NCBI GenBank assembly: GCA_025558095.1 | Contig: JAIVFI010000008.1 | Span: 310,001 to 374,000 of the forward strand | Source: Hyaloraphidium curvatum | Taxonomy: Eukaryota > Monoblepharomycota > Hyaloraphidiomycetes > Hyaloraphidiales > Hyaloraphidiaceae | Length of the DNA stretch: 64,000 bases | Direction of reading: 5' to 3' | In this document: positions 4,217 to 57,065 of the stretch, piece by piece | How positions within the stretch are numbered: position 1 is the stretch's first letter | How the letters are laid out: every line of letters begins with the position of its first letter | The notes under the pieces: model-generated | Database searches by the model: none | What the model was told of the DNA's origin: nothing | Seen by the model: only the letters and a program-made list of their open reading frames with translations | Made by a program: the position numbers and the translations under genes

Positions 4217-4495
4217 CTCGGTGGAACGGGTTGCCGCGCTATCGGGACCGCACAATAAATAGGCGACTATTTGGAGTCGCGGTGGTCGATAGAGACGGTG
4301 TTGCCCTTCTAGGGACCGGATATCGGCGAGCGGAGGTTGGGACCGGCCTTGCGGTCGGCAAACACTTCTTGCCGCTTCCGAACCTCCGCAATGCCGAACC
4401 TTCAGACGAGGGATCGACCGAAGTGAAACTAGCAATCGCAACAATCATCAATATTCCCGATTGATATCATTGCATTCGTTGGCGCTGCCTCCTTT
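4217..4495. other. Intergenic, amine oxidase start to bshC stop
   Basis: This gap of 279 bases lies between two minus-strand genes. It should hold the amine oxidase promoter. It is less GC-rich than its flanks, and no coding sequence or recognisable site is seen. Confidence 0.5.
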
Positions 4496-6076
4496 CTAGC
4501 TGCTCTCCATCAGGATGGTGAACTTGAATGCCAGCGGATCGAACGCCGCGTACAGGTCATCCAGCAAGTTTCGGTTGCCCGCCAGGATCGTCAGCAGCCC
4601 CTCCACCCGTTCCTGCAGCACGCCGCCGGGAAGCATCGCGGCCTTGAGCATGTCGAGCTTGGCAAACGTCCGCTCGTGCCGCCGATCGCGCGCCTTCTCC
4701 ATCCGCGCGCGGAGCTTCCGCACGCTCCGTGCCGCGCGCTCGCCGTGCGCAACGGCGGCCCGCGCGGCCGCGGCGTCGATCCCGTTGGCTCTGGCTTCCA
4801 GGCGCGCGAAAGCCGCGGCGATCTGCGCCAGCTCTTCCGACACGTCCACGGGCACATCGCCGAGGCGCTCGGCCAGCCGGCGCTTCAGCGCAGCCGTGTC
4901 CGCAAAAAAGTCCGCGGGCTCGAGCTCCAGTTCCCGTGCAAGCTGCACGGCCGACCGGTCCATGTACATGGCCGAGTTGCGCAGGACGACGATCGGGAAC
5001 GGCACCGAAAACAGGTCAAAGACGCCCTTGAGCTGACCCCAGTAAGCCAGCTCGGAACCGCCCCCCACGTAGGCGACGTTGGGCAGCAGGATCTCCTGGT
5101 ACAAGGGCCGCAGCCCGACGTTGGGCGAAAACCGCTCCGGGTGGGTCCGAGACAGCGTCCGCAGCTCGTCCCGCGAGAAGACCAGGCCGGTGCCTACAAC
5201 CTCGAAGTTGCCGTCGAAGCGCCGCTCCAGGCGGGTGCGCAGGTCGCCGTAGAGGTAGAAGAGGTTCGTCGGACGCGCGTGGATCTGCGGTCTGTAACCC
5301 AGCTTCTCCAGCCTGGCGTCCGCCGCGGTGATCGCTCGGTGTATCGCAGTGCCGTCGATCTCGCTCTCCACCACGGGGCGAAAGAAGGCCTTCAGGGCCG
5401 GCGAGTCGGCGTCGAGGGCAACCACGCCGAAGCGGCCGAAAAGCTCGTGTGCGAGCCGCCTGGTGGCTTGCGCGAGGCTGGACCCGAGCCCATACGTTGC
5501 GGTGATCCCCCGGAAGCGCGCGGGCAGGGAATCCAGGAGCTCGACGAGCGAGTCGTCGATGCGCATGCGGCCCGTTGCACCCCGCTGCTCCGGTTTCCAG
5601 CGGAAGGTCTTGCCCGCGAACGAAAAGTGGTCGATCTCGGCGAGATCATGGTCCTCGGTTGCCATGTAGAAAACCGGAACGAAGCAGCAGTCCGGGTGGG
5701 CTTCGCCGAGTTGGAAGGCGAGCTTCACGGTGCTGATGATTTTGTAGGCCCAAAAGAGAGGACCGGTCATAAGATTGAGCTGGTGGCCCGTGACAAGAGC
5801 GAAGCAGTTGGAGCGCGAAAGTCGCGCGATGTTCTCGGCAACTTCAGGGTGCACATCATCCCCGAGGTCTCCATACTGCCTCTGAAGTTCCGAAACGAGG
5901 ACGGCGCGCTGTTCCGGCGAGTAGGACGCGGCCTTGTCGCGTATTTGGTCCGCAAATGCGGGCAGGTCCGGGAAGCGCCCGTAGAACGGAGCGAGGCGCG
6001 GGCTGCGCGCGATGTAATCGATGCAGAGCGATGAGAAGGCATTCGTCGCGCCGTAATCCACGAGCTGTGTTCGCAT
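4496..6076 (-). CDS. bshC: Bacillithiol synthase BshC (cysteine-adding enzyme), Bacteroidetes-like
   Basis: BshC joins cysteine to glucosaminyl-malate, the last step of bacillithiol synthesis. The 526-residue frame is uninterrupted and of usual family length (about 540). It carries the hallmark block TGHQLNLMTGPLFWAYKIIS, then VPVFYMATEDHDLAEI, and later LLPNVAYVGGGSELAYW. The GHQLN and TEDHD wording is what I know from Bacteroidetes BshC rather than Bacillus. A coiled-coil-like region precedes the C-terminus. The ATG at 6076 fits the family N-terminus; an ATG at 6118 would add 14 Arg-rich residues. The gene has no introns, unlike most neighbours, and is divergent from the hydrolase-like gene at 6224. 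Bacterial origin by transfer is inferred. Confidence 0.92.
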   Translation of the reverse strand: MRTQLVDYGATNAFSSLCIDYIARSPRLAPFYGRFPDLPAFADQIRDKAASYSPEQRAVLVSELQRQYGDLGDDVHPEVAENIARLSRSNCFALVTGHQLNLMTGPLFWAYKIISTVKLAFQLGEAHPDCCFVPVFYMATEDHDLAEIDHFSFAGKTFRWKPEQRGATGRMRIDDSLVELLDSLPARFRGITATYGLGSSLAQATRRLAHELFGRFGVVALDADSPALKAFFRPVVESEIDGTAIHRAITAADARLEKLGYRPQIHARPTNLFYLYGDLRTRLERRFDGNFEVVGTGLVFSRDELRTLSRTHPERFSPNVGLRPLYQEILLPNVAYVGGGSELAYWGQLKGVFDLFSVPFPIVVLRNSAMYMDRSAVQLARELELEPADFFADTAALKRRLAERLGDVPVDVSEELAQIAAAFARLEARANGIDAAAARAAVAHGERAARSVRKLRARMEKARDRRHERTFAKLDMLKAAMLPGGVLQERVEGLLTILAGNRNLLDDLYAAFDPLAFKFTILMESS

Positions 6077-6223
6077 TCGACGCGTTCCCGGGCGGGTTCG
6101 GACTGGGCCGCGCCGCATGGCAGCAGGCGGCGCCGCCGCGGGGATCCGCGTCCCATCTGTATTCTCAAAGGCGGACCTGGCGTGCCGGAGCCGGCTCGCG
6201 AACGAGGCATTGCTCGGCGTCGG

Positions 6224-7858
6224 ATGGTATGGCCGCGCTGGCGGCGGAGACTCGTCCTCCTCGGCCCGTTCTTGCTCGTTGCGGCCTTGCTGAACCTCCG
6301 CGCTCCTGCGCGCACCTCTGCGCCCTCTCTCCGGATTCCATGGGGCGCGATTGGGCCGACCGAATCATACGCCGCCGTCGACACCGCGCGGAACTGGAGC
6401 TGGTCGGAATCCGACCGACCGATTGCGCTTCGGCGGCCCCGGACACGTGGCGCACTCCACGAGTTCGTCAGATGGACCGGAGACGTCGCGACGCTGCTGC
6501 CCCGAAATCCGGAGGCTTCGCCCTCGCAGCTGGACTTTCCGCTGCTCCCGCAGACGTTCGTCGTGGACCGGACGCGCTTCATTCTGGAGCTCCCGAACGC
6601 GATTCCTGGGTCGGAAGCACCTCGCCCGCGGGGTGTGGCGGTCATCTTCCAGGCCTGCCACAAGTACGCGTGCGCTCTGGACTTTTGGATACTTCCTCCG
6701 CAGCGCGAGCTGGTTGCGTTCCTCCTCACGCTGGGCTTCGCCGTGCTGTCCCCGGATTTCATCCGCTTTTCGAGAACGAATGCCGCGGGTTGCGCTTACA
6801 TGGCGCAGGAAGAGCCCCGTTGGTCGTCGAATCCGGACTACCTTTCTCTCCGAGAGTCGCTGCCGAAGGCTCTCGCTCGCTCCGGCCTTGCCGGACTGCC
6901 TCTTTTCTGGTACGCCATCTCGGGCATCGCTGGAACGGCCGCCTTGCTTTTCCGGGACATCCAATTCGCGGCGGCCGTCATTCATTCTGGAAACCTCCCT
7001 TTCTCTTTGCTCCGCGATCCCAAAGTGAGGCTTCCGCCCGTTCTACACCACATGTTCCTCCGCGACTACTACCTCCCGCGCGCTCTGGCCGAGAACTTTA
7101 CGGGCATCTATGCCGGCCGGGCGGAGCCTACCCGGGTGATTTCGGACGAACGGTGGTTCGGGCTCACCACGGGCGACGAGCTCCACCGTGCATGTCCCGA
7201 GGTGGCTTCGAGGGACGAATGGAAATCTCTGCTCGCGTGGATGTGCTCGAGGGGACGCTGCGCCCGCCACAAGAGCAGGCCGCTTAGCACGGATTCGACG
7301 CTGGCGATGGACGACTACGTCGACCCGCTGCCGAACATGGCGGGACCCGGGCCGATCGCAGGCTCTCGCTTTGACTTTGCTTCGGAAGACCGTCTCGTCG
7401 TGCACCTGCCGATCGAGAAGAAGGAGGGCTGGTTCGACAACCTGGAGGGCTGGTTCGAGCTTTTCGATCGGTCCGCCGTTCGCTACTACCGCAGGCTTGC
7501 GGTGCTCGATCTCCTGGCATTTGCCGCGACGGCGCAGGAAGGGAAAGGCGAGGGCGCCAAGGCGATCTGGGCCAGGGTCCGGGCCGCAACCGCGGCCGAC
7601 GGCGGGCCTTACGTGGAATGCGCTTCCGGCGCCGAGCTCGAATGCCGCGTGCTTCGCGCCGATCTCGATCCCCGCTTCTACGATCGTCTTGTCAACGATA
7701 CTGAGCTGGCGCAGCCGATGATTCGCAAGGCCCGGATTGCCCACAAGGTTGCGATCGGGTTCTGTATCACGTTTGCGCGGTACGTTCATCAAGGGCTGGC
7801 CGGCTACGGGGGCAAGCAGGAGATGGGAGCGTGGTTCGAGCGATGGCTTGACCCGTAG
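6224..7858 (+). CDS. Membrane-anchored alpha/beta-hydrolase-like protein in the bacillithiol locus
   Basis: An intronless frame gives 544 residues from the ATG at 6224. Residues 8-24 form a hydrophobic stretch preceded by RWRRR, a signal anchor. A hydrolase-like core follows: GVAVIFQACHKYACALDFW, LLTLGFAVLSPDF, then WYAISGIAGTAALLF, in which SGIAG could be a nucleophile elbow (G/A-x-S-x-G-like). The C-terminal half has no recognised motif. It lies between divergent bshC and the 5' piece of bshA, shares their lack of introns, and may have arrived with them. I do not recognise a specific family, and a role in bacillithiol metabolism would be guesswork from position. Confidence 0.6.
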   Translation: MVWPRWRRRLVLLGPFLLVAALLNLRAPARTSAPSLRIPWGAIGPTESYAAVDTARNWSWSESDRPIALRRPRTRGALHEFVRWTGDVATLLPRNPEASPSQLDFPLLPQTFVVDRTRFILELPNAIPGSEAPRPRGVAVIFQACHKYACALDFWILPPQRELVAFLLTLGFAVLSPDFIRFSRTNAAGCAYMAQEEPRWSSNPDYLSLRESLPKALARSGLAGLPLFWYAISGIAGTAALLFRDIQFAAAVIHSGNLPFSLLRDPKVRLPPVLHHMFLRDYYLPRALAENFTGIYAGRAEPTRVISDERWFGLTTGDELHRACPEVASRDEWKSLLAWMCSRGRCARHKSRPLSTDSTLAMDDYVDPLPNMAGPGPIAGSRFDFASEDRLVVHLPIEKKEGWFDNLEGWFELFDRSAVRYYRRLAVLDLLAFAATAQEGKGEGAKAIWARVRAATAADGGPYVECASGAELECRVLRADLDPRFYDRLVNDTELAQPMIRKARIAHKVAIGFCITFARYVHQGLAGYGGKQEMGAWFERWLDP

Positions 7859-7998
7859 ACGCTTGGACGATGGGACGTTGCTCTGTTAGAGATGAGACGG
7901 CCTGGTACTGTATCTGCAGACACCTCTGAGGGACTGGACTTCGAGGGGAGGTGATTGGTGTGGCTGAGTCCGCCCTTCCCCTGCTTCGGAGGTCGGAA

Positions 7999-8200
7999 AT
8001 GCCCGCCTGTGCGGCTCAAACGGAGCCGAACAGCTCTCGCAGGCCATGCGTCGGCATCATTTGCCACGATTCGCGGGGCGGAAGCTCGAGAATCGCCTGC
8101 CAGCTCGCGGCGTCCCTCTCGCGTCGGGACGCAGTTCGAGTTCATCTGTTTACCCGGTCGGCGGACAGGGGCGGCTCCCCGGTGCGCGCCGCCGGCTGCA
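7999..8200 (+). pseudogene. bshA: 5' fragment of bshA (bacillithiol glycosyltransferase), interrupted
   Basis: The frame from the ATG at 7999 reads CVGIICHDSRGGSSRIACQL then AASLSRRDAVRVHLFTRS. This matches the BshA amino terminus: beta strand, C-x4-GGS-x-x-A loop and the next strand (pattern kIGI.C....GGSg..A..La..La..gH.vH.fT). After about residue 50 the similarity is lost in Arg/Gly-rich low-complexity sequence. The remainder of BshA reappears in the same orientation at about 22455-23256. BshA transfers GlcNAc from UDP-GlcNAc to L-malate. As it stands this piece cannot encode a working enzyme. The 3' limit given is approximate. Confidence 0.7.
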
Positions 8201-8269
8201 GCGACGCCCGGCGGAACGGCTCGGCGGACCCCATGCGGAGGAGGCGGAGCGGAGGAGGCGGAGGGAGGG

Positions 8270-10822
8270 GGAATCAGATCTGTAACGCCCGCGGATACGA
8301 AAGCTCTACCCAGATCCCAATTCAACTGTTCATGTAGTCCTCGATTACACTATTCTCTTTCCGTATCTTCACGCCTCGTCCTTAAAATCGACCTAGAGGA
8401 CCGCGTCGCGCGATATACATGGCTTCTGCCGTCGGTCTGCGTCCCCATCCTTTGGTCTATATGAATAGCCCGCCAGACAGGGCGTCGATCTGCTCCTGCT
8501 CGTGGAACTGTGCTTTTCCGTCCCTATGTCGGCCTCCTGGCCTGATCTTGATGTGATCGGGTCTTTGACGATTCCGAGGCACTCTGATGGCAGACGTCGG
8601 TTGCTCCCAAACAACCCGCTGAAGCACAAACCACCCTCACGGGACAGCGACTCTTTGCTCGTCTGCAGCGCCAAGAAACTCAAGGCGCACTTTCCGAGCC
8701 CCTGCTGGACGACCTTTCGGCTATCGATCTCTTGTCACGCTCGCTCACAACTTTGCCTACCGCCTCCCCTCCCCGACCATTGTTTGTTCACCAACTCTGC
8801 TCGCGGGAACCCTGCTCTTCGACTTTCTTCGGCTAGGTGAGTTTTGATCGACGTCGGCAAGGGACGGAAAGTGCGCCAAGGGTATCGAGGCGCTCATACG
8901 GGTTCATGGTTACCCCGGAACTGGTCACCGTGAGTGGTGACCCGCTAAGGACTTCCCGTAGAAGTCCTAGGGAGTGATTGCCGGTAGAAAGCGTCGAGGA
9001 GCTCGGCGTATGATCACTCTACGACCACAAGGTAGTCCCATCGCGCTTGCCCCTCGCCAAACCGCCCGCAAACAGCCAAACCTCCGAACCCCTCACACGC
9101 GCTGCAGAGCACGGCGCGCCACGCTGTGCATCGGTTTTCATTCAGCTGGTGCATTTCTCGGCGCCTCCGCGGGTGATGGCGCCGGGATTCGGTCGCGAGG
9201 CGGTGCCGGAGACCGTTGGGCCCTCCCGCGGTCAGGTGCGATCGTCGGCGGCCGCAGGCCTTGCCGGCGGTGCTTGACCAAGCGACGCGGCTGCGCACAC
9301 CGCGGCGGCATCGCGCAGGCTCGTGGTGCCCGTCGATTGGTTTCTGGCGCGACGGTGGTCGACCCCGGGCAGATGCCAAGTCGGGCGCTGGCCGTCGGCG
9401 CGGCTCTCCCGTCGTTTTTTGCTCGGAGATTTCTTTTTTAGAGCCGCTCAGGAAGAATGTCGGCGTGGATTTGTCTTGGGCGCCTTCTTCCTGTGCCGCC
9501 GGATGGGGTGTGCGCCCAATGCCATTTGTCGCTGCCTGCGGAGCTTTGAGCGCCGCCGGTTCGACCCCCTGCCTGTGCGGCCTCGTCGCCGCCGGCGGGG
9601 GCTGGATGGCCGCGCTTGCGTTGCTGTTCTTGGCTGCGACGAGGTACCCTGTCGAGGGGACTCCGAGCCACCCTCTCTGGCGGCGGCGAGACGCTGGGGC
9701 CCGTGTTGCACTGCTTCTGCGGGACGTTTCTTTCCTTTTGGTACAAGTCGGCGTCTCCCGGGCACGATTCTGACGCGGCGCTGCGGAGCGCGGCTCCCGC
9801 GACGGCACGCCGAGGACCTCGATCGCATCCGGCAGAGCGCCCTCTACTCCCCTTCCGGTTGGCGTATATCTGCAGCAGAGTGCCCGTGAACCGCAAATGT
9901 GAGTGTCCGCGCCGCGATGCTCTCCGTGGCGTCGGCTGACTCGCTCGTCGTCGCTAGGAACCGCATCCGCCCCTTTCGCGATTCCTCTGCGTTGCGGCCC
10001 GCTGCTCATTCCTGGACCCATTTGGATACCCGGACCGTCGTCAAACCCGCGCCACCGCTGATCGGGCACACTGCCATTTCTTCCGTCCGTGCGCGAACGG
10101 GCAAACCCCGGCTAGGGGCAGCTCAGCGGCCGCGACGGCGGTGTCATCCGGTCCCCGTCTACTCGCTTCCTCTCTCGCTATTGCTCGCCATTGTAGCGAT
10201 GGAGTAGTTGGCTGGCTTGCTTCTCGGACACGGTAGCTGGACGGGTGACGTGGCGGGCGTCGCTCTCGCGCATGTGGCGGATCTTCTTCGTTTCGAATTC
10301 TAGGACGTTTTCTTTGTTTTGAGGGAGGATCTTTTGCCTCGGAAGCGGCTTGCATGTAGCTCGGACGCGCCTGTGGCGACCTGATGCTCGTGGGACCAGG
10401 ACGCCTCTTGCAAACAAGGTCAACAAAGGACTCCCCCCGTGTCGTCTTTCACGCACCAGACCTCCGGCGCCAGCAGTCGCGTAAGTTTCCGAGCTTTTTT
10501 GTCTTGATCTGCGACTGGCGCGGCCGGGCAGCGCCGCGGAGGGGGGGGGTTTGGCCTGGGGCGACCTCCATCTCGGGCACTTCATGCCCGGCCATCCGCG
10601 CCTGCCGCCGGCGGAGACCCGGTCTGGCCCGGTTCTGCGACCTTTGGGTCGCAAGCTGCGGTTTGCGGGGGCTCCCTCGGCCGCGGCGGTCCGTGCAGCC
10701 GGCGCTCGGGCCCGGCCGGCAGAACCTTTCGCCGGACTTTGCTCACGGCCGTTCCCGCGCCAGATCTCTGCGACCTCGTGCTCTTCACCGTGTTCTGATC
10801 TCATCTTTTCCGGATTCTGACC
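8270..10822. other. 2.5-kb region without a recognised gene
   Basis: No frame here shows a recognisable protein. A possible coding stretch lies at about 8600-8835 and ends at a good 5' splice signal (CTAG|GTGAGT at 8836), so a spliced leader or upstream exon of the downstream giant gene is conceivable. Two tandem perfect hairpins lie at 8923-8968. From 9000 to 10800 the sequence is GC-rich with several frames open on both strands, none with protein-like motifs. Confidence 0.4.
8923..8968. ncRNA. Two tandem perfect stem-loops, candidate structured RNA
   Basis: The first hairpin has stem GGTCACC/GGTGACC (8923-8929 with 8936-8942) and a 6-nt loop. Five bases further, the second has stem AGGACTT/AAGTCCT (8948-8954 with 8962-8968) and a 7-nt loop. 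Both stems are perfect 7-mers. No RNA family is recognised. The position inside the block that carries the Fanzor-like gene makes a guide-type RNA worth considering, but known Fanzor guide RNAs usually lie at the 3' end of the nuclease gene, which this does not. Confidence 0.35.
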
Positions 10823-13800
10823 ATGGCCGGGGCCGCCGAGGCCGCAGTCGACCTGCCCGACCCGGGTGCTGTTCCGCCCGAGGACATCAGCGCGGCGCTT
10901 CAGGGGGCGCCGACGTCCGTCATCTTGGGCTTTTTCGACGAGATGTACGACAAGACGTCCGAGGCCGCGGCGCTGCGGCTCGAGATCTGCGAGCTCGTCG
11001 ACCCCGAAGACGGCACGTCGCCCCGCAGGGCCGTTCCCCGGGGGAAGGCAAGCAAGATGGACATCCATGCGCGCAAGACGGCTGAGGAGGAAGTGACCGC
11101 CAAGCGAGCGTCGGCCCTCCGCGACGGCGGCAAGTGCGACTACGAGGGCCTGTTCCAGACTTACTGCCGGGTCCGCGCCGCGGTTCTGGACAAGCGGGTG
11201 GCTCAGTACATTGCCCGAGAACGGAGAACCGAACGCAGGGTGCAGATTGAACTCGCGAGGCAGCTCAAGGCCGAGGCCCGGGACGCGAGGAGATCCACCA
11301 GGGTCGAGGATGTCGCCGCGGGCAAGGTGGAGCACCCTGAGCATCACCCGCGCCGCGTTAGCTACGATGCTTCGACCGCGGCTGTGGGTCTGTGCATGGC
11401 CCTAGGCGTGTTGCTCGGCTTTGCGGCGTTCTTGGATATCACGATGCAGTCAGTTGCCGGCATCGCCAAGGGAGTGGCCAAGGGAGCCTTCGAAGGGGTC
11501 GCCGCCGCTGCCAAGGGTCTTTGGACGGCTCTCGTTACCCGGCGAGTCGCCGCCGCTTTCCTGGCCGTCGTCGCGCTTCTGGTCGCCGTCTTTCTCGTCG
11601 GACACGGGAGCCCCGACTGCCGCTCGAGCGACTTCCCCGCCTTACCTGCGCGAATCTCTGGGTCGTTGCCGAACTCGACAAGATCTGTGCACCGCCTCGG
11701 AGCTCACGTCGCCCGGCCGTCCTCACCATCCGCATCGTTGCATGGGGACGCCAGCGGGGTGCGACTCGTTCGCCGCGTCGCTCCGACCCCTGCCAGCGGC
11801 CCGGGACCCGCGCACCCGGCGCAGCCTGTCGAAGTGCAAGGGGCCGGCGCCAAAGATGTCGCGCCGTCTGCGGCGCCGTCATCACGGTCTCGCCCGGCCC
11901 AACGCCTCGGGTCTCCTCGCGCGGCGCGCGCCGCCGAGAAGTTGCTGGGGCGTCACACCGCAGCCGGTGGGTTTTGATCGCTCCGGATCGCATGGAGCTC
12001 GCAGCATTGACGCTCCCCACTCGTCCGCTGGCGCAGACGTCGTTGCCATGTGCGATGCCGAGCTCGCCAGGCGCGCGCAGGCCGAGCTTGCCCGCACCCA
12101 GCTCCGCCACGCTGTCATTGCCTTCCAGCTCAGGGACCGCATGTGCGACCGTCCTGGCAAGCTCGACTACCTGACCGGTGAGCTGCCATGTGGGCCCTTC
12201 GGTGCCATCTCTGACATGCCGCCTCTCTTTGTTCAGATTCCGAATGGGGAACGTTCGTCGGCGCCGCGCTCACCTGGCGCCTCAAGATGTCGGGCCCCTG
12301 GCGTCCGGCCTCCGCGGCGCCCTCCGCCGCCGTCGCCGATGCTACCGCACACGACCACCAGTGTGGTGTGATGGAGACGCCTCCGGCCTCGTGGACACCC
12401 CCCGTCAGGCCGGCCTCGGGCGCCGCGCTCATCCCGGCTCCGTCGTTGACCATCCACCCTCCCTCCGAGCCGGACGCCTCCGCCGCCGAACCCGCACCGC
12501 GCGCTGCCGATGCCGGGCTTGCCGCAGGGCCCGGGCCACTGGCTGCCGACGCTGTTGCGGCCAAGGTCGTCGCCGGAGCTGTCGACAATGCGCCCGCGCC
12601 CTGGACCCCAGCCTCTCGACCAGCTCCCCGACCTCCCTCCCCCACCCCCGCCGTTTCTGCGGTCGTGGCGGCAGGCCCAGAGCGCCGCGACGGAGACGAC
12701 GACCCCCCGACGCCCCTCACCCGGCCGTCGTCGTCTGCTTGGCGAGAGGGCGGAAGCCCCGCAGTCGCGTCGGAGGCGGCGCCGCCCAGCGGACCTCCTC
12801 TTCATGACGCGGGCGCGCGCTCTCTGCCTGTTGCGGGTGGCGCCGACGACGAGCCCGCTCCCCGGGTCCCTTGGAATGGACCGCTCTCGCGGTTCACCTT
12901 GGCCGGCCCGTGGACCGCCGCCGAGGCGGGCGAGGTCGACGAGCCGGAGGTGCTCTTCATTCTGCACCTCCCGTCCGACGTTGTGGCTGGGCACAACGCC
13001 TCGCGCGGGGTTGAGATCTCGATGCGCGCCTCGGATACGGTGTCTGATCTCCAGGTTCGTCGCGATCCATTCCTGTCGAGGCGCAAGCAGTTGACGCCCT
13101 TCCTACGCCCATTCCCGATCGCCACAGGTCCTCGTCGCAGACCGCATCGGCTGCCGTGTCTCTGCCGTCGACCTCTTTTCCGACCACCATCGGCGCAGGC
13201 GACTTTGCCCCGCAGCGTCGCTGGGCCAGTGCGGGATCCAGGCCGGCAGCTCCGTCTTTGCCCGCCGGCTTCGCAAGTTCACCCTATTCGTCTCCTCCTT
13301 CCCCATCACCCTCAGCGACGGCCTGCACTCGCTGAACAAGACCCTGACGGTCCGCGTGGGCTCCGACTTGCGGATCTCGGCGCTCAAGGTGGGCCAAATT
13401 CTCACCATGGCACCCGGCTGTCTTGCTGACCTCCCAATCCGCGCGCAGAAATCCGTCGCAGCCCGCCTCGGCGTCCCCAAGACGTCCTTCTACCTACGCA
13501 CACGGAGCGGCCTCGTCCTGGAGAAGGGCGGGCAGGTCGGGGACGAGCAGGTCGGGGACCTGCTCTGGAACGAGGCCACTCTCTTGGCCACCGTCCGCCT
13601 ACCCGGCGGGGCCAAGAACGCGACTTCGAGCGGAGGAAGGCGGGGGAGGGGAGGCAGGGGCGGTGGTCGGGGTGGGAGGGGCGGCCAGGTGCCCAAGACG
13701 CCCAAGCGGGTTCGGTCGGAGGACGAGGACGAGGGCGACGACAAGGAGAGCGACCCGGATCCGGAGGTGACGACTGGCGGCAGGGGGGTGGGCACGGAAC

Positions 13801-19800: not shown

Positions 19801-22399
19801 CGCCACCATCCTGGTCGGCGAGGTGGAGGGCGACGTTGCCGGTCTTCGAGAGCGCTTCACCGCGGACCTGTCGGCAGAGAAGCGCGGGCCGATCGAGGCC
19901 GCCTTCGACCTGTTCCTGAACCTGCTCACGGTTGCGGACGGAGGTGTCCGCTCGGCCAAGCACAAGGACGACGTGCGCACCGAGGTCGGCTTGGGCACGA
20001 CCGAGCTTTCCAAGCTGACTCTGGTGGAGCAGCTGGTGATGGTCCGCCGCGGGGTCGTGGCGGGCGAGCTGCGCCAGAACGTTGTGCCACGGCTCCATGC
20101 CGGAGACCGCTTCCAGCCCGTGGACAACACGGCGTTCGGGCGCTGGATCTCTGCCTACATTGGACATTTGCATCGGCTGAAGGAGGGCGGCACCGACAAG
20201 GACGGGAGGCCCGTTCCCTTTGCCCTTGCCGACGTCGTTCGGGGCTGGGATGTGCCGCGCATCAAGGCCGTCCAGGATGCCCTCGACAAGCAGAACCAGG
20301 CCACAAAGATTGACACCGGCACTGCGCCCGGCCTCCCCGCGCTCATGAACAAGATGATCCCCGGCCTGGCCCGCGTCGTACGCGGTCCGGCGATGGACCG
20401 GGGGGACGCGCACGTGGACAGGTTCGAACCCTACAAGTCTAGCCACTTCCAGTCCAACGGCATAGAAACGCGGATACTCGTGACCAACCAGCGCCATCCG
20501 CACCGCTACAACCAACTCGGCGGCGTGCGGACCAAGACTGCGGTGGGTCATTTGGCGCAGCGGCAGCTGACTGCGAGCAGATGCTGACCACCGCTCGATC
20601 GTGGCAGGCGGGGGACCCGATCCTCGGCGACAACCCGCGGTGGCCCGTCGACTGCAGGGGCTGCAAGAAGGGCAAGTGCGATCGGCTGTACCCCGGCTGC
20701 TCGTAGGTGTCCCGCACGATCACCGACGCCGATATACCTGATCCCGAGTTGCTGACGCCCGCGATCAGCGACTGTGCCGCGGCCAACCGCGCGTGCGTGT
20801 ACGATCTGCCGACCTGCAAGCCCTGCGAGGCGGCAGAGCGGGATTGCGACGGATGCATGCCGACCTGCGGGTGCGTCTCCAGCTTTGACGTGCATGCCGG
20901 CGCCAGAGTCTCACACCATCCGGTGCCGCGCAGCCACTGCTCCGCGAGCTCGACGTCGTGCACGTGGTCCGTCGCGCAGCCAGAGCGATACGCGCAGGTG
21001 ACCAGCAACGCGTTCCGCCGCACCCTGCCCGAACTTGCCGGGCATCGGCACATCAAGGCCGCGACCACGGCAACGGTGCCGGCGGCGGACAACGAGGCCG
21101 CGAGCGCGACCGCCGGCATCCCTCCTGCTCCTCCACCCACTCCTCCCTCTCCTCCCGCCCCGCCCGGGCCGCCGGCCTGCGGCTCGACCCCGATCTCCAG
21201 CCGCTGCTCCTCGTCGTGCTGCCATGTTCGCGCCGGAGCCGCCGGCACGCATGACCACGCGCGAATCGTGGTACTGGAAGGACAGCTGTGCTGTCGCCCT
21301 CCATCGGGCCCCGGCGGCCGCCGGTGTCAGAAGCTGCAGACGGACGGCAAGGACGTGCCGTACTTCTTCAGGCACTCGACGACCGTCGAGGCTGCGGACA
21401 GCCTCGCCCTCGAGTCGATCCTGGTCGCGGTCGACCCCGGCACCGGCGGCCACACGATCAGCGTCACCGTTCACTTCCGCGGCGAGGGCGGCCAGCTGGA
21501 GCAGCTGACGGTGCACCGCAAGTTCGAGCCTCTCTCGTCCGCCGGATACCGTGCACGCGACGAGGAGGCGAGGTCGGCGGCCTGGTGGGAGGCCCATGGG
21601 GCGATGTCGCAGGGGTTGCGCGGGATCTCGAGGTCGCCGTACCCCATGGACGGCGTCATGGCCGGTGCGCGAGCTGTCGTCCGCGTTTCCGAGCGCCGCA
21701 GTGCTGACCTCTTTCCCGTGCCCAGGTGCCGCCTTCCTCCGCAATGCCGGCCCCCTCCTCGACCACGCGCAGAGCCGCAAAGCCCAGCTGGCCAAGGCCT
21801 ACCGGTTCCGCGCCTTCCAGGCCCGCAGCAACGCCATCGTCAACTGGATCACGGAGGCCTGCGAGGCCCTGTGGCGGCGCAAGACGTATGTCGAGACCTA
21901 CAACGCCGCCGTCCGGCAGGCCCAGGGCGCGCACGGTGGCCGCAAGCCGACCGCGGAGGAGCTCAGGATCACGGAGCGCGCGGCGCGCGAGGCCGCGGAG
22001 CAGGCCGTCGACCGCATCGCCGCCGTGCCCAACCCCATTGTTCTCTGCGGCGCTGGCCAGGGCTCGTCGTCGAAGATGCCGTACCGCGGCGGCATCGCCG
22101 AGCTGCTCTCGCGCCACTTCCTCGTGGTGATGCTCGGCGAGCACAACACGTCGCAGCGGTGTCCCACGTGCCTCTCGGAACTCAAGGCGTACCCGCTGCG
22201 CAAGGGCGACGTCGAGCACAAGGTCTGCCCGTCCTGTGCCGGCCGCTCGGACAAGCACGGCTTCAAGGACAAGCTCGAAGTCAACAAGAATCGGTCGGCG
22301 ACGTTGTGCCTCATTCGAGTGTTCCTGCACATCATTGCCACCGGCCAGCGGCCTGCCGCCTTCACCCACCCCGCTGCTTTGCGCGGAACTGCCGGATAA
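10823..22399 (+). CDS. Giant 12-exon gene: membrane segments + 2 ubiquitin-like domains + XPG-like + Fanzor-like
   Basis: The start ATG has a strong context (GACCATGGCC). Exons: 10823-11966, 12037-12177, 12237-13054, 13128-13388, 13449-14820 (donor could be 6 or 15 nt later, same phase), 14904-15328, 15400-15960, 16029-18740, 18797-20542, 20608-20702, 20769-21664, 21726-22399. All 11 introns are 56-83 nt, GT-AG, and every phase matches, giving 3,614 residues with no stop. That agreement is strong evidence for one gene rather than several. Exon 1 encodes a charged helical region (residues 1-185) and two hydrophobic segments (about 190-265). Separate entries describe the later domains. Donors such as GTGGGT are those of the host genes around it. 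Without transcripts, a split into two or more genes stays possible. Confidence 0.7.
12946..13610 (+). other. Two tandem ubiquitin-like domains in the giant protein, the second ending LPGG
   Basis: Removing introns 13055-13127 and 13389-13448 yields two beta-grasp-like units. Unit 1 (about residues 665-745) runs EVLFILHLPSD..., VEISMRASDTVSDLQ, then VLVADRIGC..., parallel to ubiquitin's second strand and first helix. Unit 2 (about 751-842) runs LTVRVGSDLRISALK | KSVAARLGVPKTSFYLRT and ends NEATLLATVRLPGG, matching the order TIENVKAKIQDKEGIP...TLHLVLRLRGG of ubiquitin, including the final diglycine. An RGG-rich segment follows directly. Both domains are split by an intron at the same structural place (just before or in helix 1). 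A GG end inside a polyprotein could be a cleavage site for ubiquitin-like proteases; that is inference. Confidence 0.6.
14166..15460 (+). other. XPG/FEN1-like nuclease domain in the giant protein
   Basis: The N-region has ICFYVDASVILHSILGSDY, similar to the FEN1/XPG strand bearing the first metal Asp. After a Q9 tract (CAG repeats near 14633-14658) and an intron, the I-region reads VAEADGHF, then RLVVTSDRDPLYMA (pattern EA.a..., vv..DsDlL), then VLVAGSHNTTSHF|GAKRFRDVLRA, corresponding to the helix-two-turn-helix entry. Acidic residues at E-x-D and D-x-D are kept; the usual second Glu/Asp cluster is not complete (EAD rather than EAE, HN in place of DY after VAG). The fold assignment is moderate and catalytic activity is uncertain. 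Family members cut flapped or branched DNA. Confidence 0.55.
16029..18740 (+). other. Long acidic/low-complexity then helical region of the giant protein (exon 8)
   Basis: This 904-codon exon begins with Pro/Ala/Ser-rich sequence, then an acidic tract (DPDDDDDEAPEDDE), basic KKQKRGRGK-type nuclear-localisation-like stretches and, from about 17140 on, well-ordered amphipathic sequence of about 520 residues without recognised motifs. I can name no domain. Its place just before the Fanzor-like region suggests a DNA- or RNA-binding or structural role, without evidence. Confidence 0.5.
18797..22399 (+). other. Fanzor (TnpB-like) nuclease region of the giant protein
   Basis: Exon 9 is mostly helical and ends with HFQSNGIETRILVTNQ, like the segment before RuvC in Fanzors (F.tDG...). 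A Cys-rich stretch follows (CRGCKKGKC... CKPCEAAERDCDGC). The RuvC-I motif is ILVAVDPGTGG (Asp near 21433). After a long helical arginine/alanine part come LCGAGQG and GEHNTSQRCPTC (22139 on), the Fanzor/TnpB RuvC-II Glu, TS-x-x-C-x-x-C signature, then CPSC completing a four-Cys zinc ribbon. The expected RuvC-III Asp (RD..A) is replaced by Asn (KNRSA, 22286-22300). Known Fanzors are RNA-guided DNA endonucleases of about 400-1000 residues, so fusion into a protein this size is unusual. Confidence 0.68.
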
Positions 22400-22454
22400 A
22401 CCGACCCGGCGCGAACCTGAATGGGTGAGTGTAGGATTTCTCTCGGGCAGGGCT

Positions 22455-23256
22455 TTCTCGGGCCCTGAGCATTCACGGAGGAGTTGACCAACCTCTCTCC
22501 CCTTTTCAAAAGTCTGCGGATAGTGGCGGGGACTCGGATGTTGTGACCGCTGTATCTCGACATCATGCCTTTCTGGCGAGGGATGTCTTTTGCCTGGATT
22601 CCTGCCCGACGGTCTTGCGCAACTTTGTTCCTGTCGAACGCTTTGCTCGTCGACGCCGATCCACCAATGCGGGCTGCAAAGTTGTCGGCCATGTTTCCAA
22701 TTTCAGGCCCGTCAAAAATCCGCTGATGGTCGCCGAGGTTTTCCAGATTCTCCGCCTGCAGTCGACCTCCGTCACGCTGAAGCTCATCGGAGATGGCCCG
22801 TTGAAGGGCGAACTGACTATGCGTCTGCAGGAACGCTGTTTGTCGGATGGCGTGCTCAGTGTCGACAGTGTGTCGGGAAGCGTGCACAGTGTCGGCTTCA
22901 CCCCGGACGTGGCGGCGGCTCTTCATGAGTGCGACGTCCTCTTTGTTTCCAGCCAAATGGAGGCATTCAGTCTAGCTGCATTGGAAGCCATGGCAGCCGG
23001 AGTGGCGGTAGTAGCTCCCAGGGTCGGCGGCATTCCGGAGCTCTTGACCGACAACGAAACGGGAGTTCTTTACGAGCCTGGGGACGTCGCGGGAGCCGCG
23101 GCAGCCTTGAAGGCGGTCCTGGGTGACGACGCCTTCCGAAGAAGGCTCACGGAGCGGGCATTTGAGGTGGCAAAAGGGTACGACGTGAATGCTGGCGTCG
23201 CTGCCTACGAGCGGCTCTATCTCCGCCTGCTCAGCAGAGGTCGAACAACGATTTGA
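22455..23256 (+). pseudogene. bshA: 3' part of bshA (bacillithiol glycosyltransferase), separated from its 5' part
   Basis: The open frame (after a stop at 22434) reads ...IHGG, SDVVTAVSRHHAFLARDVF, NFVPVERF, VVGHVSNFRPVKNPL, LIGDGPLKGEL, then EAFSLAALEAMAAGVAVVA and GGIPELL. These are BshA/GT-B glycosyltransferase features: D.VTAVS, the acceptor-side PNFV, HxSNFRPVK and the sugar-nucleotide E-x7-E (EAFSLAALE) with G.PE. About 260 codons remain intact. No ATG in a suitable place precedes TAVS; the first usable codon is GTG 22543, so the piece is not an independent gene. Its last codons overlap the antisense of a bshB remnant (RLLSRGRTTI), so the original C-terminus was altered too. Confidence 0.82.
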
Positions 23257-23475
23257 CACCGGGTACACGCGCAGCTATGTATCTTTCGCCAAAGTCAAAT
23301 CCCACCGAGATGTGGGTCATCGTCCGTCCTCTCCGTCCGATGCGTCGGATCGTGGAACTGCGTCTCGGAGACGAAGCCGCCCGCGATGGTTCGCGCCTTT
23401 CCATCAGGCGTTGCAGAACACACAGTCCGGCTCGAGTTCACGCAGCCGGTCATTGCACCACAGCCAGGTGAAGCT
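23230..23475 (-). pseudogene. bshB: Decayed copy of bshB
   Basis: The sequence CAGCAGAGGTCGA-CAA-GATTTGACACCGGG and what follows closely match the 3' end of intact bshB (27475 on), including the stop codon region, which on the minus strand still reads PGVKS...DLC-stop. Relative to the intact gene there is one loss of about 65 nt and another of about 200 nt, and reading frames are broken, while islands such as GATGTGGGTC...GTCCGTCCTCTCCGTCC and GGCGTTGCAGA...CAGTCCGGCT persist. It lies tail-to-tail with, and overlapping, the 3' end of bshA. Confidence 0.85.
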
Positions 23476-23643
23476 TGGGCGCGATGTGGCTTTCGCATTT
23501 TTGCACGAGATCCGGCTACGCCCGAGAATTAGGCTTTGGCTTTGACTCGTGACCGTATCCCTCCCCGGTCCAGACCGCGCAACTTGACTCATGCCGCAAC
23601 CCCCCCTCCTTCAGTAAACTCAACGCCGACTCCTTCGACCGAA

Positions 23644-26600
23644 ATGAACCTCATGAAAGCGTCGGCGGTCGCCGTCGGACTGGCTGTGATTTTGGCCGCG
23701 TTGGCGGGACCGGCCAACTCGGACGGCACATACAGTTGCTACGATTCCGCAGGCTGCTCGTCCAATGCCTGCATTGACGGAGGAAAGCAATGCCACAACG
23801 ATTTCGATTGCCAGGGAACGTGCGGGAGCTGCAAACAATGCTGGGCATGGGGCTGTGGTTTTCTCGGAATATACTGGGCAAGCTTCCCTCCAGTGGCGCC
23901 ATCGCATGCCGCTGATCATTACAATGCTTCCCCATCATAGGACTGCGGAAAGAATTGCGCTAAATGCGGTGGCTCTTGCAGCTCGACTTCCAACTACTGT
24001 AGCAGCAGGTCAGGCTGCTACACAACCTGCCAGTGCTCGTCTTCCTCGTGCGGCTCGAACCAGTACCTTTCTGGCTGCGGAGGCTCCAGCTCCGGCACTT
24101 GCACAACATGCGGATCATGTCCTCCTGGACAGGAGCGCCAGGGATGCTACGGCCTGAACTCCGGAAGCTGCAACAGCTGTCCGTCGATCCCGTCTGGCGC
24201 CTGGTTCACTGGCTCAGGATGCAGCTACGAGGCCTGTCCCTCCGGAGAGAGCAACTGCGGGTCGCCTACAAGAGACGGCAAAGCTTGCGCAAATCTCCAG
24301 ACAAACCAATGGCATTGCGGCGCGTGCAACCGGGCGTGCCCTTCGGGACAGATTGTGAGTTTTGGTCCATCCTGCGCATGAACGAACCTGCTGACAAACG
24401 TTTGCCCTCCAGTGCACACAAGGCAGCTGTGCGTGTCCGTCAGGAACCTCCATGTGTGGTTCCACCTGCCTGGACCTTCAATCGGACAAGAAAAACTGCG
24501 GCACGTGCGGAACTCCGTGCTCGGCCGGCAAGATTGTAAGCTCCAGCTCCCGTACCCTCGCACGATCGCGCTAATGTTCCGTCTTCGCAGTGCTCGTCGG
24601 GGACGTGTGTATGCGAAAGCGGCCTCACGGACTGCTCTGGGAACTGCGTGGACTTGAAGGCTTCGTTTTCGCACTGTGGCGGATGTGGCACTGCGTGCCC
24701 TGTTAACCAAACGGTACTTTAAAGCCGCCGAACACCTGGAATGGTTAGATAACGCCTCGTCCTCAACAGTGTCTCGGCGGATCATGCGGGTGCCCAAACT
24801 CGCAAACGTACTGCGGTGACAACTGTTTCGACACCTTGACCGAAACCAAGCACTGTGGAGCATGCTCCAAGGCATGCCCAGCGACTCAAATTTGTTCATC
24901 CGGAACCTGTGTGTGTCCAATTGGGTTGGCATATTGCGCCGACAGCGGCCTGTGCTCCGATCACAAGACGGACACCGGGAACTGCGGTGCATGCTCCAAG
25001 CGGTGTGGACGCGGACAAACGGTGCGACATGTTCTCGATGCTCTCTTTGCTGCCCTGCTAATGAGACTGCAGTGCGAAAATGCGACTTGCATCTGCCCGA
25101 GCGGGCTTTCCTACTGCGCTTCCGTCGACTCGTGCATCGATCTGCAATCTGACACACAGAACTGCGGTTCCTGCGGGAGCGTCTGTCCCGCCGAAGCCAC
25201 GCGCTGCTCCGCTGGCCAATGCCGGCTTGCAACATTCTCTGCTGAGCCTGCAGGTGCTCCGATGGTCTCTGACAACACCACTGCGCTCGGTCTCATGCAG
25301 GGCTCCAACTTCGGTATCTCCACGGCCCGAGGCGGCCTCGCCTGCACGCCCAAGTGCGCCATCAATGCCGCCGCCAAAAGTGAATACGTCGTTGGCAGAG
25401 TGTCGAACCTGACGGCCGTCTACACCTTGCGCCGGGGCACGGTCTGTCTTCTCGTCCAGGAAGCTCCAGGTTTGCCAGCTGCCTTGATCGAAGCAGGTTG
25501 CCCCAGGAGCGCATCCGCCGGCAAGCGCCAAGATGGCAATCTGCTGCCATTCTGGCACGTCTACAATTCCTCGGGATCCATCAGGCTGCTCAATGCAAAC
25601 ATGGACGACGAGACGGGGTGCATCTTGGTGCCGTCCTCAGGCAATGTCGGCCTAGGCGCATGCGCAAACGAGACTGCGACAACGTGGAACTTCAGTCTGA
25701 CTCTCGAAAGTGGAACGAGCACGGTTCCGATCGGCGTCATTGTGGGCGCGGCAGTTGGCGGTGCCGTTGCCGTGGCCGGTGCAGCAGGCGCCGTCTACTA
25801 CGGAGTCCGCCGAAACAGGGCCAAGAAGGATGCATCAACCGGATCTGAGGACCGGAACTCGGACTGCAGCCGAGACGACATGATCGGAGAAAGTTCCGTG
25901 AAAAAGGCGCCGCACACGCTTCCTGTTCCCACAGTGTTTGCCGCAGTTCCTGAAACGGTGCCTGGCCCGAATTCGGCGACGCCGAATAATCCAGATTACG
26001 AAGTGGTCCCGGCGTTCCCGGCAGGCAGCGTGTTGTACAGAACATGGGGGGGCGATTCAGAAGGCTCCATTCTATCCGTTCCGGTCAAGCACTACTCAAC
26101 GGTCGACTACGCGTACGCGGCGACGGCACCCGATGAGCTCGCCCTGAAGCCCGGAGGTGAAGGCGGCATAGCGATTGTTCGTCGCACTTTCACCTTATGG
26201 CATTTCTCAGATCGAATCTACGTCGATAAAGCTTTCAGTGACGGCTGGGCTTTGGGAAGCCTTGCCGATGGAAAGCAGGGTCTGTTTCCAGGCGACTTCC
26301 TGGTCTTTGCGCAGGCACCTTCACAGCCACAAGTTCCTCCACGAATGACCTGCTCAATGCCCAAGAGCGAGCCAGCGACGTTGTACGAACAGAAACCAGC
26401 ACCGTCGAAGACCATGAGCGGATCCTCATCTTCAACAGCTATCGAATCCAAGATGTCCAAGATTGCGGCAAACGATTTCGGCCCCTTCGCCTCCAAATTG
26501 CTCGTCGACTCATCGGAGATCATTATTGACCGCAACCAACGGCTTGGCGAAGGAGGTTTCGGCGTCGTGTACGCCGGTATCCTGCGAGGTTCCAACGCAG

Positions 26601-27410
26601 TTGCGGTCAAAACGATCAAGGGAGACTTGGACGAGAAGACAATGCTGGCATTCATTAAAGAGGTCGTCAACTGGGAGGGTTTGGTTCAGCGCAATGGTGA
26701 GCCGCGCTGATCTGCAGAGTGAAGCCCACGACCCACTCTTCCCAACTCAGTGCTGCCGCTCATGGCTTTCTGTATCTCGCCCCCAATGATGATTACCGAC
26801 CTGGTGGAGGAAGGAAACATGCGCAAGTACCTCGCCGGGCACAACTGGGACCAGGCTATGGGTCTCAGGTTCCTGATCGAAGTCACGGCCGGCATGTCGT
26901 ATCTCCACGGCAGCGGCATTCTGCACGGCGACCTCAAGTCGCTCAACGTTCTCATCGATGGATCACGGGCCGTCATCACCGATTTTGGCCTTTCACAGCT
27001 CAGATCCCAGGTCAGCAAGTCGACAAGCAAGGTCGGAAACGGGCTCCAAGGGACCCCGGGCTTCGTGGCGCCGGAGATCCTCGCGGGCGGCAGGCTGCAG
27101 GCTCCGGCAGATGTGTACGCGTTCGCCATGACGGCCTACGAAGTCTTGTCGCGCGGCAGCTACCCGTTTGAGGACTTGACGAACGTCGCAACAGTAGGCT
27201 CCGGCACGGCATACGGCGTATCGGTCCTGACGCATGAACGAACAGATCGTCTACAAGGTCGCAGTCGAGCAAGCCCGCCCGGCGCGACCTGATGGCGTGG
27301 CCGACCCGGTGTGGACGTTAGTGGAGAGATGCTGGGCGCACGACCCAGCAGCCAGACCCACGTTTGTGGAAGCACACGATCAGCTTGTTAAGATTATCGC
27401 GCAGCTCTAG
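23644..27410 (+). CDS. Receptor-like kinase: Stig1-like Cys repeats, TM, SH3, TKL kinase
   Basis: The ATG at 23644 starts a signal peptide (MKASAVAVGLAVILAALA). Cys-rich repeats with the pattern G.C.CP.G...C...C.DL..D..NCG.C...CP.GQ follow, roughly one per exon (exons ending 24354, 24535, 24713, 25021; each next exon begins TGC), matching Stig1-type repeats. An N-glycosylatable ectodomain and a membrane segment (VIVGAAVGGAVAVAGAAGAV, near 25740) come next, then a cytosolic SH3 domain (DYAYAATAPDELALKPG... DGWALG, GKQGLFPGDFL), then a kinase with LGEGGFGVVYAG, AVKTIK, HGDLKSLNVL (HGD for HRD) and DFG. Introns at 26697-26750 and near 27190-27245 restore the kinase. The junction after exon 1 (before 23941) is not resolved. 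Likely a cell-surface receptor; ligand unknown. Confidence 0.85.
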
Positions 27411-27474
27411 GTTGGCTTGCTGTATAGATCGTCGCGCTGCTTTACCTCCACTAGATTATGTTGGCGCATCCTGC

Positions 27475-28206
27475 TCAGCAGAGGTCGAGCAATGATTTGA
27501 CACCGGGTATACGCGCAGCTATATACCCCTCTCCAAAATCAAAGCCCGCCTGATGGCCAAACTCACGGGCGCGAGCTTCGACGAACCTGATGAACGCGGG
27601 GGTCGAGATGTGGGTCTGCGGTCCGTCCTCTCCGTCCGGTGCGTCGGGATCATGGAACTGCGTGCGGTAGGCGCGAATGGCATCCAACTTCCGGTCCCAG
27701 AACTCGCTGATGTCCACGACAAACGTCGGTATGAGCAGCCGGTCCTGGATGTAGCTGTAAACGTTCTTTGGTCGCCATGGGGCCTGTGCTTCGCCATCGG
27801 GGCCCAATGTCGCCACCTTGACCAATCCGCTGAGAAAAACGGACTCGGAGACGAGCTGCGCCGCCCGCGAGTGGTCCGGATGCCTTTCCACCGGGGCGTT
27901 GCAGAGGATGCAGTCCGGCTGGAACTCCCGCAAAGCTTGCACAGCCGCCAGCTGCGATGCCTCGTCGTTCCGGAAGAAGCCGTCGCGCAGACCCAAGTTC
28001 CGCCGCACGCTGAGCCCCAGGATTCGGGACGCGTCCTCCGCTTCCCGGGCTCGCGTCTCGGCTGTGCCCCGCGTGCCCAGCTCGCCGCGCGTGAGGTCGA
28101 CGACGCCGACCCTCCGACCCCGCGCAATCTCGCTCAGGATCGTCCCTCCGCAATTGAGCTCCGCATCATCGGGATGCGCTGCAATGACGAGCAGGTCCAG
28201 CTTCAT
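27475..28206 (-). CDS. bshB: Bacillithiol deacetylase BshB (PIG-L/LmbE family)
   Basis: BshB removes the acetyl group from GlcNAc-malate to give GlcN-malate. The 243-residue intact frame starts MKLDLLVIAAHPDDAELNCG, with the zinc-binding AHPDDAE motif, and has VERHPDHSRAA, the second HPDH zinc motif. YIQDRLLIPTFVVDISEFWD and FDFGEGYIAARIPGVKSL fit the BshB1 type seen in Bacteroidetes. Length matches the family. It is intronless, lies 64 nt tail-to-tail from the receptor kinase gene, and downstream of citrate synthase on the same strand. A decayed second copy sits at 23230-23475. With bshC and the split bshA, it completes the pathway genes of bacillithiol synthesis in a eukaryotic setting. Confidence 0.93.
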   Translation of the reverse strand: MKLDLLVIAAHPDDAELNCGGTILSEIARGRRVGVVDLTRGELGTRGTAETRAREAEDASRILGLSVRRNLGLRDGFFRNDEASQLAAVQALREFQPDCILCNAPVERHPDHSRAAQLVSESVFLSGLVKVATLGPDGEAQAPWRPKNVYSYIQDRLLIPTFVVDISEFWDRKLDAIRAYRTQFHDPDAPDGEDGPQTHISTPAFIRFVEARAREFGHQAGFDFGEGYIAARIPGVKSLLDLC

Positions 28207-53127: not shown

Positions 53128-53376
53128 TCTCCCGGACTCTCAAACATCTTCGGTTCGTTTGTTGGCCGAATCCTATAAGCCTGATCAATTCCTGACGATT
53201 GCTTCCCGCCGTAGTCTTCTGATTCCCCTCTAGCTCCTGGGCTGTAGGCTTATACCTCTAGTTTGATCTGTCTTCACGGAGTGCTACGGTCCGCACGAAC
53301 TGGAACCGCGGGATAGGCTCGGCCTCTCTTTACTTAACTGAATCCGTGTCATGGCACGGTGGATTAAGCCTGACGT
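53128..53376. other. Spacer between the LanC-like gene and repeat copy 1
   Basis: About 250 bases of 3' flank with a low-GC stretch. No gene or motif is seen. Confidence 0.4.
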
Positions 53377-54010
53377 GCCCTTCTAGCTGTCGGCAGCCTT
53401 GCCGTACGGACGAGCGAGGGATCCGTGTCCCACCGGGCTGCTCGAGGGATTCGAGGGACCGGGCCGGACTCTTTAGCTTCTGATTACTCGCATCCGCTTG
53501 ATCGCGGATGCCGAACGTCCGTGTGCGGGGCAGGCGAGGGCCTGGAAGTTAGTGCTGCGGCGCCGAACTTTGCGCGGCGGCGCGAGTCTCAGGTTTTCCT
53601 TCAAGACCACACTCGAACAGGTCCGTGCCCTCCACGCGCCTGCCTGCCGCCGGCGGTCCGTTCTGACGCTCGCTCCTCCTCAGGATCATGTTTGTAGTCG
53701 GTCTCTAGTCTTTTGCTTCCACAAAAGACACTCCTTTTATCGTCGATGATGAGCCGAGATGCTCCCGGCCGAGAGTGAGGTTGTCGGGCGGCTGCACTTC
53801 GGCTGGACCCCGGTCCTCGGCCGTCCTGCGCCCCCGAGCGAAGACCGACTCGCCGCCTCATTCCGGCGGCGAGGACGCCGGGAAGCATGGTCTGACACGA
53901 TGGGAGAAAAGCAGCAACAACACCCAATCAAAACAACAAACGGTAAACAAACGAAGCGCTCCGGCGCGCCGCGGGCTCGATGGGCAAGCTCTCCGGTATG
54001 TTTCGAATGC
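53377..54010. repeat. 634-bp perfect direct repeat, copy 1
   Basis: Identical base for base to 57066-57699 (offset 3689), as far as read. It runs from GCCCTTCTAGCTGTCGGC to GGTATGTTTCGAATGC. Just past the right end the copies stay alike apart from a 7-nt indel and one change (ACTTCTTTCGCGTAGGC against TTTGTACACTTCTTCCGCGTAGGC). It contains only short open frames, identical in both copies, without protein-like features. It ends 90 nt before the SepSecS start, so it forms that gene's upstream region. Confidence 0.95.
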
Positions 54011-56876: not shown

Positions 56877-57065
56877 GGGACCGAGGACGCAATCGGGGTC
56901 AGTGTGTTTGTGGAGGCAGGCACGGACCGCCTGGGCCGGCAGGTCGCCTCACTACCCCCTTCTCACTTCGAGACCTGGATGAGGTCTGCATGTGCCTTGA
57001 TTCGGGGTACAGAGATGGATGTGCATCAGAACTAACAATTCACTTACGACGGATGATCTGGACGA

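Follow-up and report, generated by a model that had tools for sequence, protein, structure and literature searches.

The window analysed here is a stretch of 64,000 nucleotides comprising bases 310001-374000 of an 855,321-bp contig (C8) of Hyaloraphidium curvatum, a member of an early-diverging fungal lineage, which the NCBI taxonomy places in the Monoblepharomycota, Fungi, and whose assembly amounts to 31.9 Mb in 55 contigs. The consulted part of PMC12115818 gives SAG235-1 as the H. curvatum strain used there, and we assume that the assembly analysed represents the same strain. Bacterial-type genes of bacillithiol synthesis (bsh) are found in this window among spliced genes. On the left, an amine oxidase gene (2471..4444, minus strand, ends approximate) is interrupted by a GT-AG intron of 57 nt (3032-3088). 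A STIG1-like part and a kinase domain form one spliced eukaryotic gene (23646..27410, plus strand), which lies between two copies of bshB and has introns of 58 nt at 24355 and of 55 nt at 24536. On the right, a spliced citrate synthase gene (28444..29957, minus strand, 5' limit approximate) has a 56-nt intron at 28617-28672. The introns in all three genes confirm an earlier note on this DNA, in which the flanking genes were described as spliced and as part of the same contiguous sequence. The same note called an intronless ORF of 558 aa (6182..7858, plus strand) "hydrolase-like", for which we find no basis: searches of Pfam (E up to 1) and of NCBIfam (0.01) retrieved nothing for the ORF, its PDB matches do not go below E 0.13, and its single-sequence structure model (pLDDT 35.0) is useless. 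We leave its role unassigned.

The bshC gene (4496..6118, minus strand) is intact and intronless, as had been noted, and its open frame encodes 540 aa, or 526 aa from a second ATG at 6076. The protein matches both BshC domains (PF10079, E 6e-100; PF24850, E 2e-24) and reaches 374.5 bits against an equivalog cut-off of 265.8 (NCBIfam TIGR03998, profile positions 2-525 of 529). No other PF10079 match occurs in the 31.9 Mb of the genome, where bshC is a single-copy gene. The predicted structure has a pLDDT of 90.2 (16-row alignment), and its best match in the PDB is the BshC of B. subtilis (4wbd; E 3e-32, TM 0.77). Among the columns invariant in 50 other rows, 61 of 64 are retained in the fungal protein, the altered residues being T93A, Y108F and W137Y; at 90% conservation the count is 106 of 118. 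We interpret the gene as encoding a bacterial-type BshC, with the predicted activity of its family, i.e., the addition of cysteine to GlcN-malate. In viral contigs, 18 stretches fit the pattern searched for, and none of them encodes a relative of BshC.

The intact bshB gene (27475..28206, minus strand, 243 aa) is of the BshB1 type and is likewise open without an intron, in agreement with the earlier note. It scores 276.5 bits against the BshB1 equivalog cut-off of 182.5 (TIGR04001), while the scores as BshB2 (50.7 bits), MshB (34.7) and Mca (32.5) all remain under their cut-offs. The public model of this gene (P0241, with 95% full-length identity to the BshB encoded here) implies one putative intron of 56 nt (27471-27526), which would replace the C-terminus; the public record names the protein a putative deacetylase LmbE-like domain-containing protein. 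The motifs AHPDDAE (residues 10-16) and RHPDH (residues 108-112) are present, of which AHPDD and HPDH are presumably zinc-site motifs. Out of 52 columns invariant in 40 rows, 50 are retained (91 of 97 at 90%), and the two invariant residues lost are the Asp just before RHPDH, which is replaced by Glu, and His151, which is replaced by Ser. The protein is best described as a bacterial-type BshB1 and a predicted GlcNAc-malate deacetylase. The end branches of BshC and BshB measure 0.63 and 0.39 changes per column in the careful trees, and given such branches the retention of columns in both proteins can be read as constraint, although part of the branches may lie in unsampled bacteria.

A relic of a second bshB (23231..23599, minus strand) lies tail to tail with bshA, whose 3' end it overlaps. 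It has suffered deletions of 54 nt and 180 nt as well as several small indels, but is still 86% identical to the intact bshB over the last 81 bp. The 353 aligned bases contain 62 mismatches, which are distributed over the codon positions of the intact gene as 21/115, 14/119 and 27/119; this pattern is a weak sign of constraint. A 4-residue insertion in the intact bshB, for which matching bases are found in the relic, is absent in all 12 of the nearest relatives, and four Rufibacter rows display a different, longer loop at the same site. As the insertion is common to both copies but occurs in none of these 12 relatives, the duplication appears to have taken place after the split from them. The contrast between the decayed copy and the one that is still open provides the strongest indication in these data that bshB may have been used in this lineage.

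The bshA gene is recognisable in two pieces on the plus strand, as the earlier note had proposed, which lie 14 kb apart. A custom profile, based on 111 relatives of more than 340 aa, matches an N-terminal remnant of 38 residues (about 8050..8163; profile positions 3-39, E 3e-9) and the C-terminal half (E 1.7e-72 in the frame 22435-23253), and its next match has an E of 6. The C-terminal half (22531..23256) corresponds to TIGR03999 positions 144-374 and retains 29 of the 30 columns with a conservation of 95% or more across 55 rows. Positions of about 40-148, i.e., about 110 residues, are missing, and the 144.1 bits of the C-terminal half against the TIGR03999 cut-off of 273.7 fall short of a full-length, two-domain GT4 protein. 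By its sequence, bshA is a pseudogene. An intact bshA elsewhere in the genome, for which the earlier note had suggested a search, was looked for, and the assembled genome holds no match to TIGR03999 over the cut-off, the next-best match reaching 64.3 bits. Eight other, weaker TIGR03999 matches occur in the genome.

The interruption of bshA is occupied by repeats. At the broken end of the N-terminal piece, a 118-bp run (8157..8274, plus strand) is identical to positions 205611-205728 of the same contig. It is followed by a dispersed repeat of 0.75 kb (8283..9034), of which full or partial copies with 87-94% identity are present on contigs C11, C2 and C36, and by a repeat element of 13.4 kb (9067..22501), which has a near-complete copy on C31 (94.9% identity) and is partially represented on C17 and C15. 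The intact columns of the C-terminal half, together with the identical 118-bp copy, suggest a recent break. The divergence of about 5% between the 13.4-kb element and its C31 copy means that the break could be older, and its recency would hang on the 118-bp run. Ten ORFs in and around the 13.4-kb element have no Pfam match at 0.01, some of these ORFs being in the wrong frame; there is none at 1 for the ORFs at 18836-20584 and 9017-10066, and none at 0.001 for two more. A Zn-ribbon ORF (21551-22396) displays weak matches, all below cut-off, to Zn_ribbon_TFIIB (20.6 bits), Cas12f1-like TNB (16.9) and DZR (13.6).

For the phylogenies, homologs were taken from lists of the best 120 of 2700, 6204 and 7408 matches, and further eukaryotic homologs are possible. 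The BshC tree comprises 18 of 119 listed homologs (the window's own excluded) and 32 of 80 bacterial bshC loci, and the careful tree omits 13 of its 51 rows; the BshB tree comprises 40 of 120 listed matches, with the fungus's own P0241 left out, and 7 of 41 rows were dropped. In the careful tree, BshC forms a clade of 12 rows (100/100) with the 11 environmental proteins P0002-P0012. This clade is sister to Hymenobacter (91/83, not starred), and these rows are nested in a set of 25 rows that otherwise consists of Hymenobacteraceae and environmental rows (100/100). Thirteen rows of the BshC tree have an unusual composition, among them the window's BshC. BshB groups with the 12 environmental proteins P0242-P0253 in a clade of 13 rows (100/99), and its near relatives and the Hymenobacteraceae form one set with weak support (49/57). 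Neither scores nor trees moved the two proteins into unrelated PIG-L or other families, an outcome that the earlier note had named as a check; both stayed BshB1 and BshC. The donor of both genes was likely a bacterium, an uncultured relative of the Hymenobacteraceae.

The relationships of bshA are different. Its tree comprises 55 of 120 matches and 11 of 20 loci, and 21 of 67 rows, including L118 (14% identity), were dropped for the AU-tested tree. Identities of the C-terminal half are 29-34% with ten Bacteroidota rows and reach 43% with environmental proteins. In the quick tree it is sister (88) to a set of 17 rows of Bacteroidota, Zixibacteria, Gemmatimonadetes and others, while in the careful tree it falls on the other side, with other rows and on a long branch (1.2), such that its placement is unstable. 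A single clade of the C-terminal half with Bacteroidota BshA rows was rejected (AU p = 0.0003), where the Bacteroidota group was named after the quick tree had set those rows apart. The near relatives longer than 370 aa score on both sides of the BshA cut-off of 273.7 bits (P0122 279.9 and P0140 274.0 above; P0126 267.7, P0125 263.6 and P0121 249.2 below), and the shorter P0133 reaches 202.2. By these matches the fungal bshA is a divergent BshA: its C-terminal half has its best full-length relatives in a subfamily of P0122, P0140 and their kin, at or near the TIGR03999 cut-off, with which the N-terminal piece has a CHDS-GGS type motif in common.

All 20 bacterial genomes searched, out of the 80 loci, contain a BshA over the cut-off. 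The 80 bshC loci are of Bacteroidota by title, except L050 ("bacterium"), and none of them has bshA or bshB in the flanks when searched with the fungal BshA and BshB (E <= 1e-3; flanks of at most 10 kb per side, less where a contig ends). Since bshA falls outside the Bacteroidota clade and no linkage is seen within these flanks of the 80 loci, at least two bacterial lineages would have contributed to the fungal genes, or the donor was a mosaic. The attribution of bshC and bshB to Bacteroidetes-type enzymes in the earlier note holds, as BshC and BshB1 are related to those of Bacteroidota; bshA is not of this type. The note's proposal that the whole pathway was moved as one cluster is not supported by the AU test and by the searched flanks of the bacterial loci, and bshA is broken besides.

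Bacillithiol is synthesized in the order BshA, BshB, BshC: BshA is a UDP-GlcNAc:malate transferase, BshB1 removes the acetyl group of GlcNAc-malate and BshC attaches cysteine to GlcN-malate, and loss of BshA stops the synthesis. The same order is given in the consulted part of PMC6282198. An intact bshA does not accompany bshB and bshC in the assembled H. curvatum genome, i.e., no complete pathway is present, and as bshA is lost the assembled haplotype should make no bacillithiol. A bacillithiol redox system (BrxA/B, BrxC, YpdA) was likewise not detected in a six-frame search of the genome. The bacilliredoxin families PF06491 and PF11009 have no match in this search, which intron-cut genes could escape, the DinB-like family PF12867 has none either, and the best match to YpdA reaches 62.6 bits against a cut-off of 339.9. 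The genes for glutathione are present, with glutamate-cysteine ligase in four pieces on contig C38 and glutathione synthetase in four pieces on C40, one of which spans a TAG that may be intronic. From these gene contents, the likeliest state is an orphaned pathway, perhaps recently broken, which may once have worked and has now probably stopped.

We therefore favour, with a probability of roughly 0.78, the explanation that a bacterial bacillithiol pathway was transferred to the fungus, was once in use, and was crippled by the loss of bshA, perhaps recently. This reading is directly supported by the identities of the genes, their nuclear location, the positions of BshB and BshC in the trees, the broken bshA, the relic and the glutathione genes. 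H. curvatum or an ancestor would have gained BshB1 and BshC from the relative of the Hymenobacteraceae, and BshA either from another bacterial lineage or from a donor already carrying a foreign BshA. The genes would have ended up within 24 kb of the nuclear genome, under selection, and bshB would have been duplicated, one copy decaying and the other being kept intact. Later, repeats may have moved into bshA, with the loss of about 110 codons destroying the first committed step. Glutathione would stay the thiol of the host, and bshB and bshC would be orphaned steps whose decay is not yet visible. According to a rough simulation of neutral change, with an assumed indel ratio of 0.1, bshC remains open with a probability of 0.19 when divergence is 1% and of 0.016 when it is 2.5%; for bshB the values are 0.45 and 0.15, respectively. 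If bshA was broken earlier, bshC would have had to remain under selection in the absence of bshA, for which this explanation offers no account. It is also conceivable, at somewhat below even odds, that we are dealing with a eukaryote that makes or recently made bacillithiol beside glutathione, by a pathway from at least two lineages, and that the strain was caught in the loss of the first step, while other isolates or another haplotype may keep it.

Bacterial contamination, or a mis-assembly joining bacterial DNA to a fungal contig, would agree with the fact that bshC, bshB and the ORF at 6182-7858 all read without introns. However, spliced genes flank and interleave the bsh genes, copies of the repeat in bshA occur on three other contigs, the two bshA pieces lie on either side of the repeats, the decayed bshB copy adjoins bshA, and the public protein P0241 also places bshB on an 855,321-bp contig. 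We reject contamination, which is very unlikely, on the introns, which bear out the argument of the earlier note against it, on the shared repeats and on the decayed copy; the bacterial-type BshC and BshB1 are encoded in a eukaryotic nuclear genome. A different question, which concerns the origin only and overlaps with the favoured transfer, is whether one donor gave all three genes as a cluster, its bshA being itself foreign. The tail-to-tail overlap of bshA and the bshB relic and the location of all pieces within 24 kb would be in line with such a donor, against which stand the rejection of bshA from the Bacteroidota BshA clade and the absence of bshA and bshB from the flanks of the 80 bacterial bshC loci; it is possible, but we rather doubt it.

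Concerning function, bacillithiol might still be made, if an intact bshA were present on an unassembled allele or if another family-4 glycosyltransferase supplied GlcNAc-malate. The apparent constraint on bshB and bshC and the well-preserved columns of the bshA C-terminal half, which may point to a strain- or haplotype-specific loss, are compatible with this, as are the eight weaker TIGR03999 matches. Nevertheless, we regard it as unlikely in view of the assembly, in which no second bshA exceeds the cut-off, and of the bacilliredoxin families, which were not found in the six-frame search. Even less probable, in our opinion, is a recruitment of BshB and BshC to another task, such as the processing of another glucosamine conjugate, for which bshA would be dispensable. 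Both ORFs are intact without bshA, BshB lacks two otherwise invariant residues, and contig C43 encodes a further relative of BshB1 of the PIG-L type (115.7 bits, under the cut-off), all of which could be expected after recruitment; yet the columns conserved in the canonical enzymes are mostly retained and no partner gene indicates another substrate.

To our knowledge, bacillithiol, a sulfur compound with a protective role, is regarded as confined to bacteria. The transfer of genes from bacteria to fungi is a general phenomenon, and intronless bacterial-type genes among spliced fungal genes, as found here, resemble the known cases. In contrast to these, the present case involves a low-molecular-weight thiol pathway, for which a 2025 survey, in the part consulted, found no eukaryotic homologs (PMC12719100). 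Among the matches listed from the open-licence literature (titles and starts of abstracts), none reports bacillithiol genes from a eukaryote, which does not prove their absence. Bacillithiol synthesis of the Bacteroidota, in particular of the Hymenobacteraceae, provides the closest parallel to BshC and BshB1, as the fungal proteins are equivalogs of both and group near this family. The fungal genes differ in being nuclear and within 24 kb of each other, unlike the 80 bacterial bshC loci with neither bshA nor bshB in the searched flanks, in a bshA that is broken and of another lineage, and in that no bacilliredoxin was found in the fungus. If our reading is true, a low-molecular-weight thiol system can be passed on to a cell in which glutathione is already present, and H. 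curvatum would also exemplify the loss of such a system. The bsh locus bears marks of residence, namely duplication, decay of one copy and interruption by the host's own repeats. From the P0122/P0140 subfamily, to which it is otherwise closest, the fungal bshA differs by its division into two pieces 14 kb apart and by the absence of about 110 residues.

The 118-bp run that adjoins the broken end of bshA (window 8157-8274) is identical to a second stretch of the same contig (C8:205611-205728) and looks like a templated insertion. The 13.4-kb repeat element (9067-22501) has copies elsewhere in the genome, of which the one at C31:133551-147040 is near-complete and those on contigs C17 and C15 are partial. 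Its last ORF (21551-22399, plus strand) ends in a zinc ribbon with a weak likeness, scoring under the cut-off, to a TNB domain of the TnpB/Cas12f type, and the element is possibly Fanzor-like.

In the public protein record of bshB (P0241) a 56-nt GT-AG stretch (27471-27526) is spliced out as a putative intron, by which the conserved C-terminus is exchanged for 20 different residues. Between the intact bshB and its decayed relic lies a spliced gene (23646-27410) in which a cysteine-rich, STIG1-like part is combined with a domain resembling tyrosine kinases, which is uncommon for a fungus.

A further intronless PIG-L-type protein, related to BshB1, is encoded on contig C43 (positions 1168-2298 of C43:54355-57720). 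It scores 115.7 bits against the BshB1 profile, below the cut-off of 182.5, and is perhaps an additional deacetylase of bacterial type.

Elsewhere in the window, a LanC-like domain (PF05147, E 1.5e-26) is matched at 52265-53233, and a 300-bp direct repeat with 100% identity occurs at 53372-53671 and 57061-57360, at a spacing of 3.7 kb.
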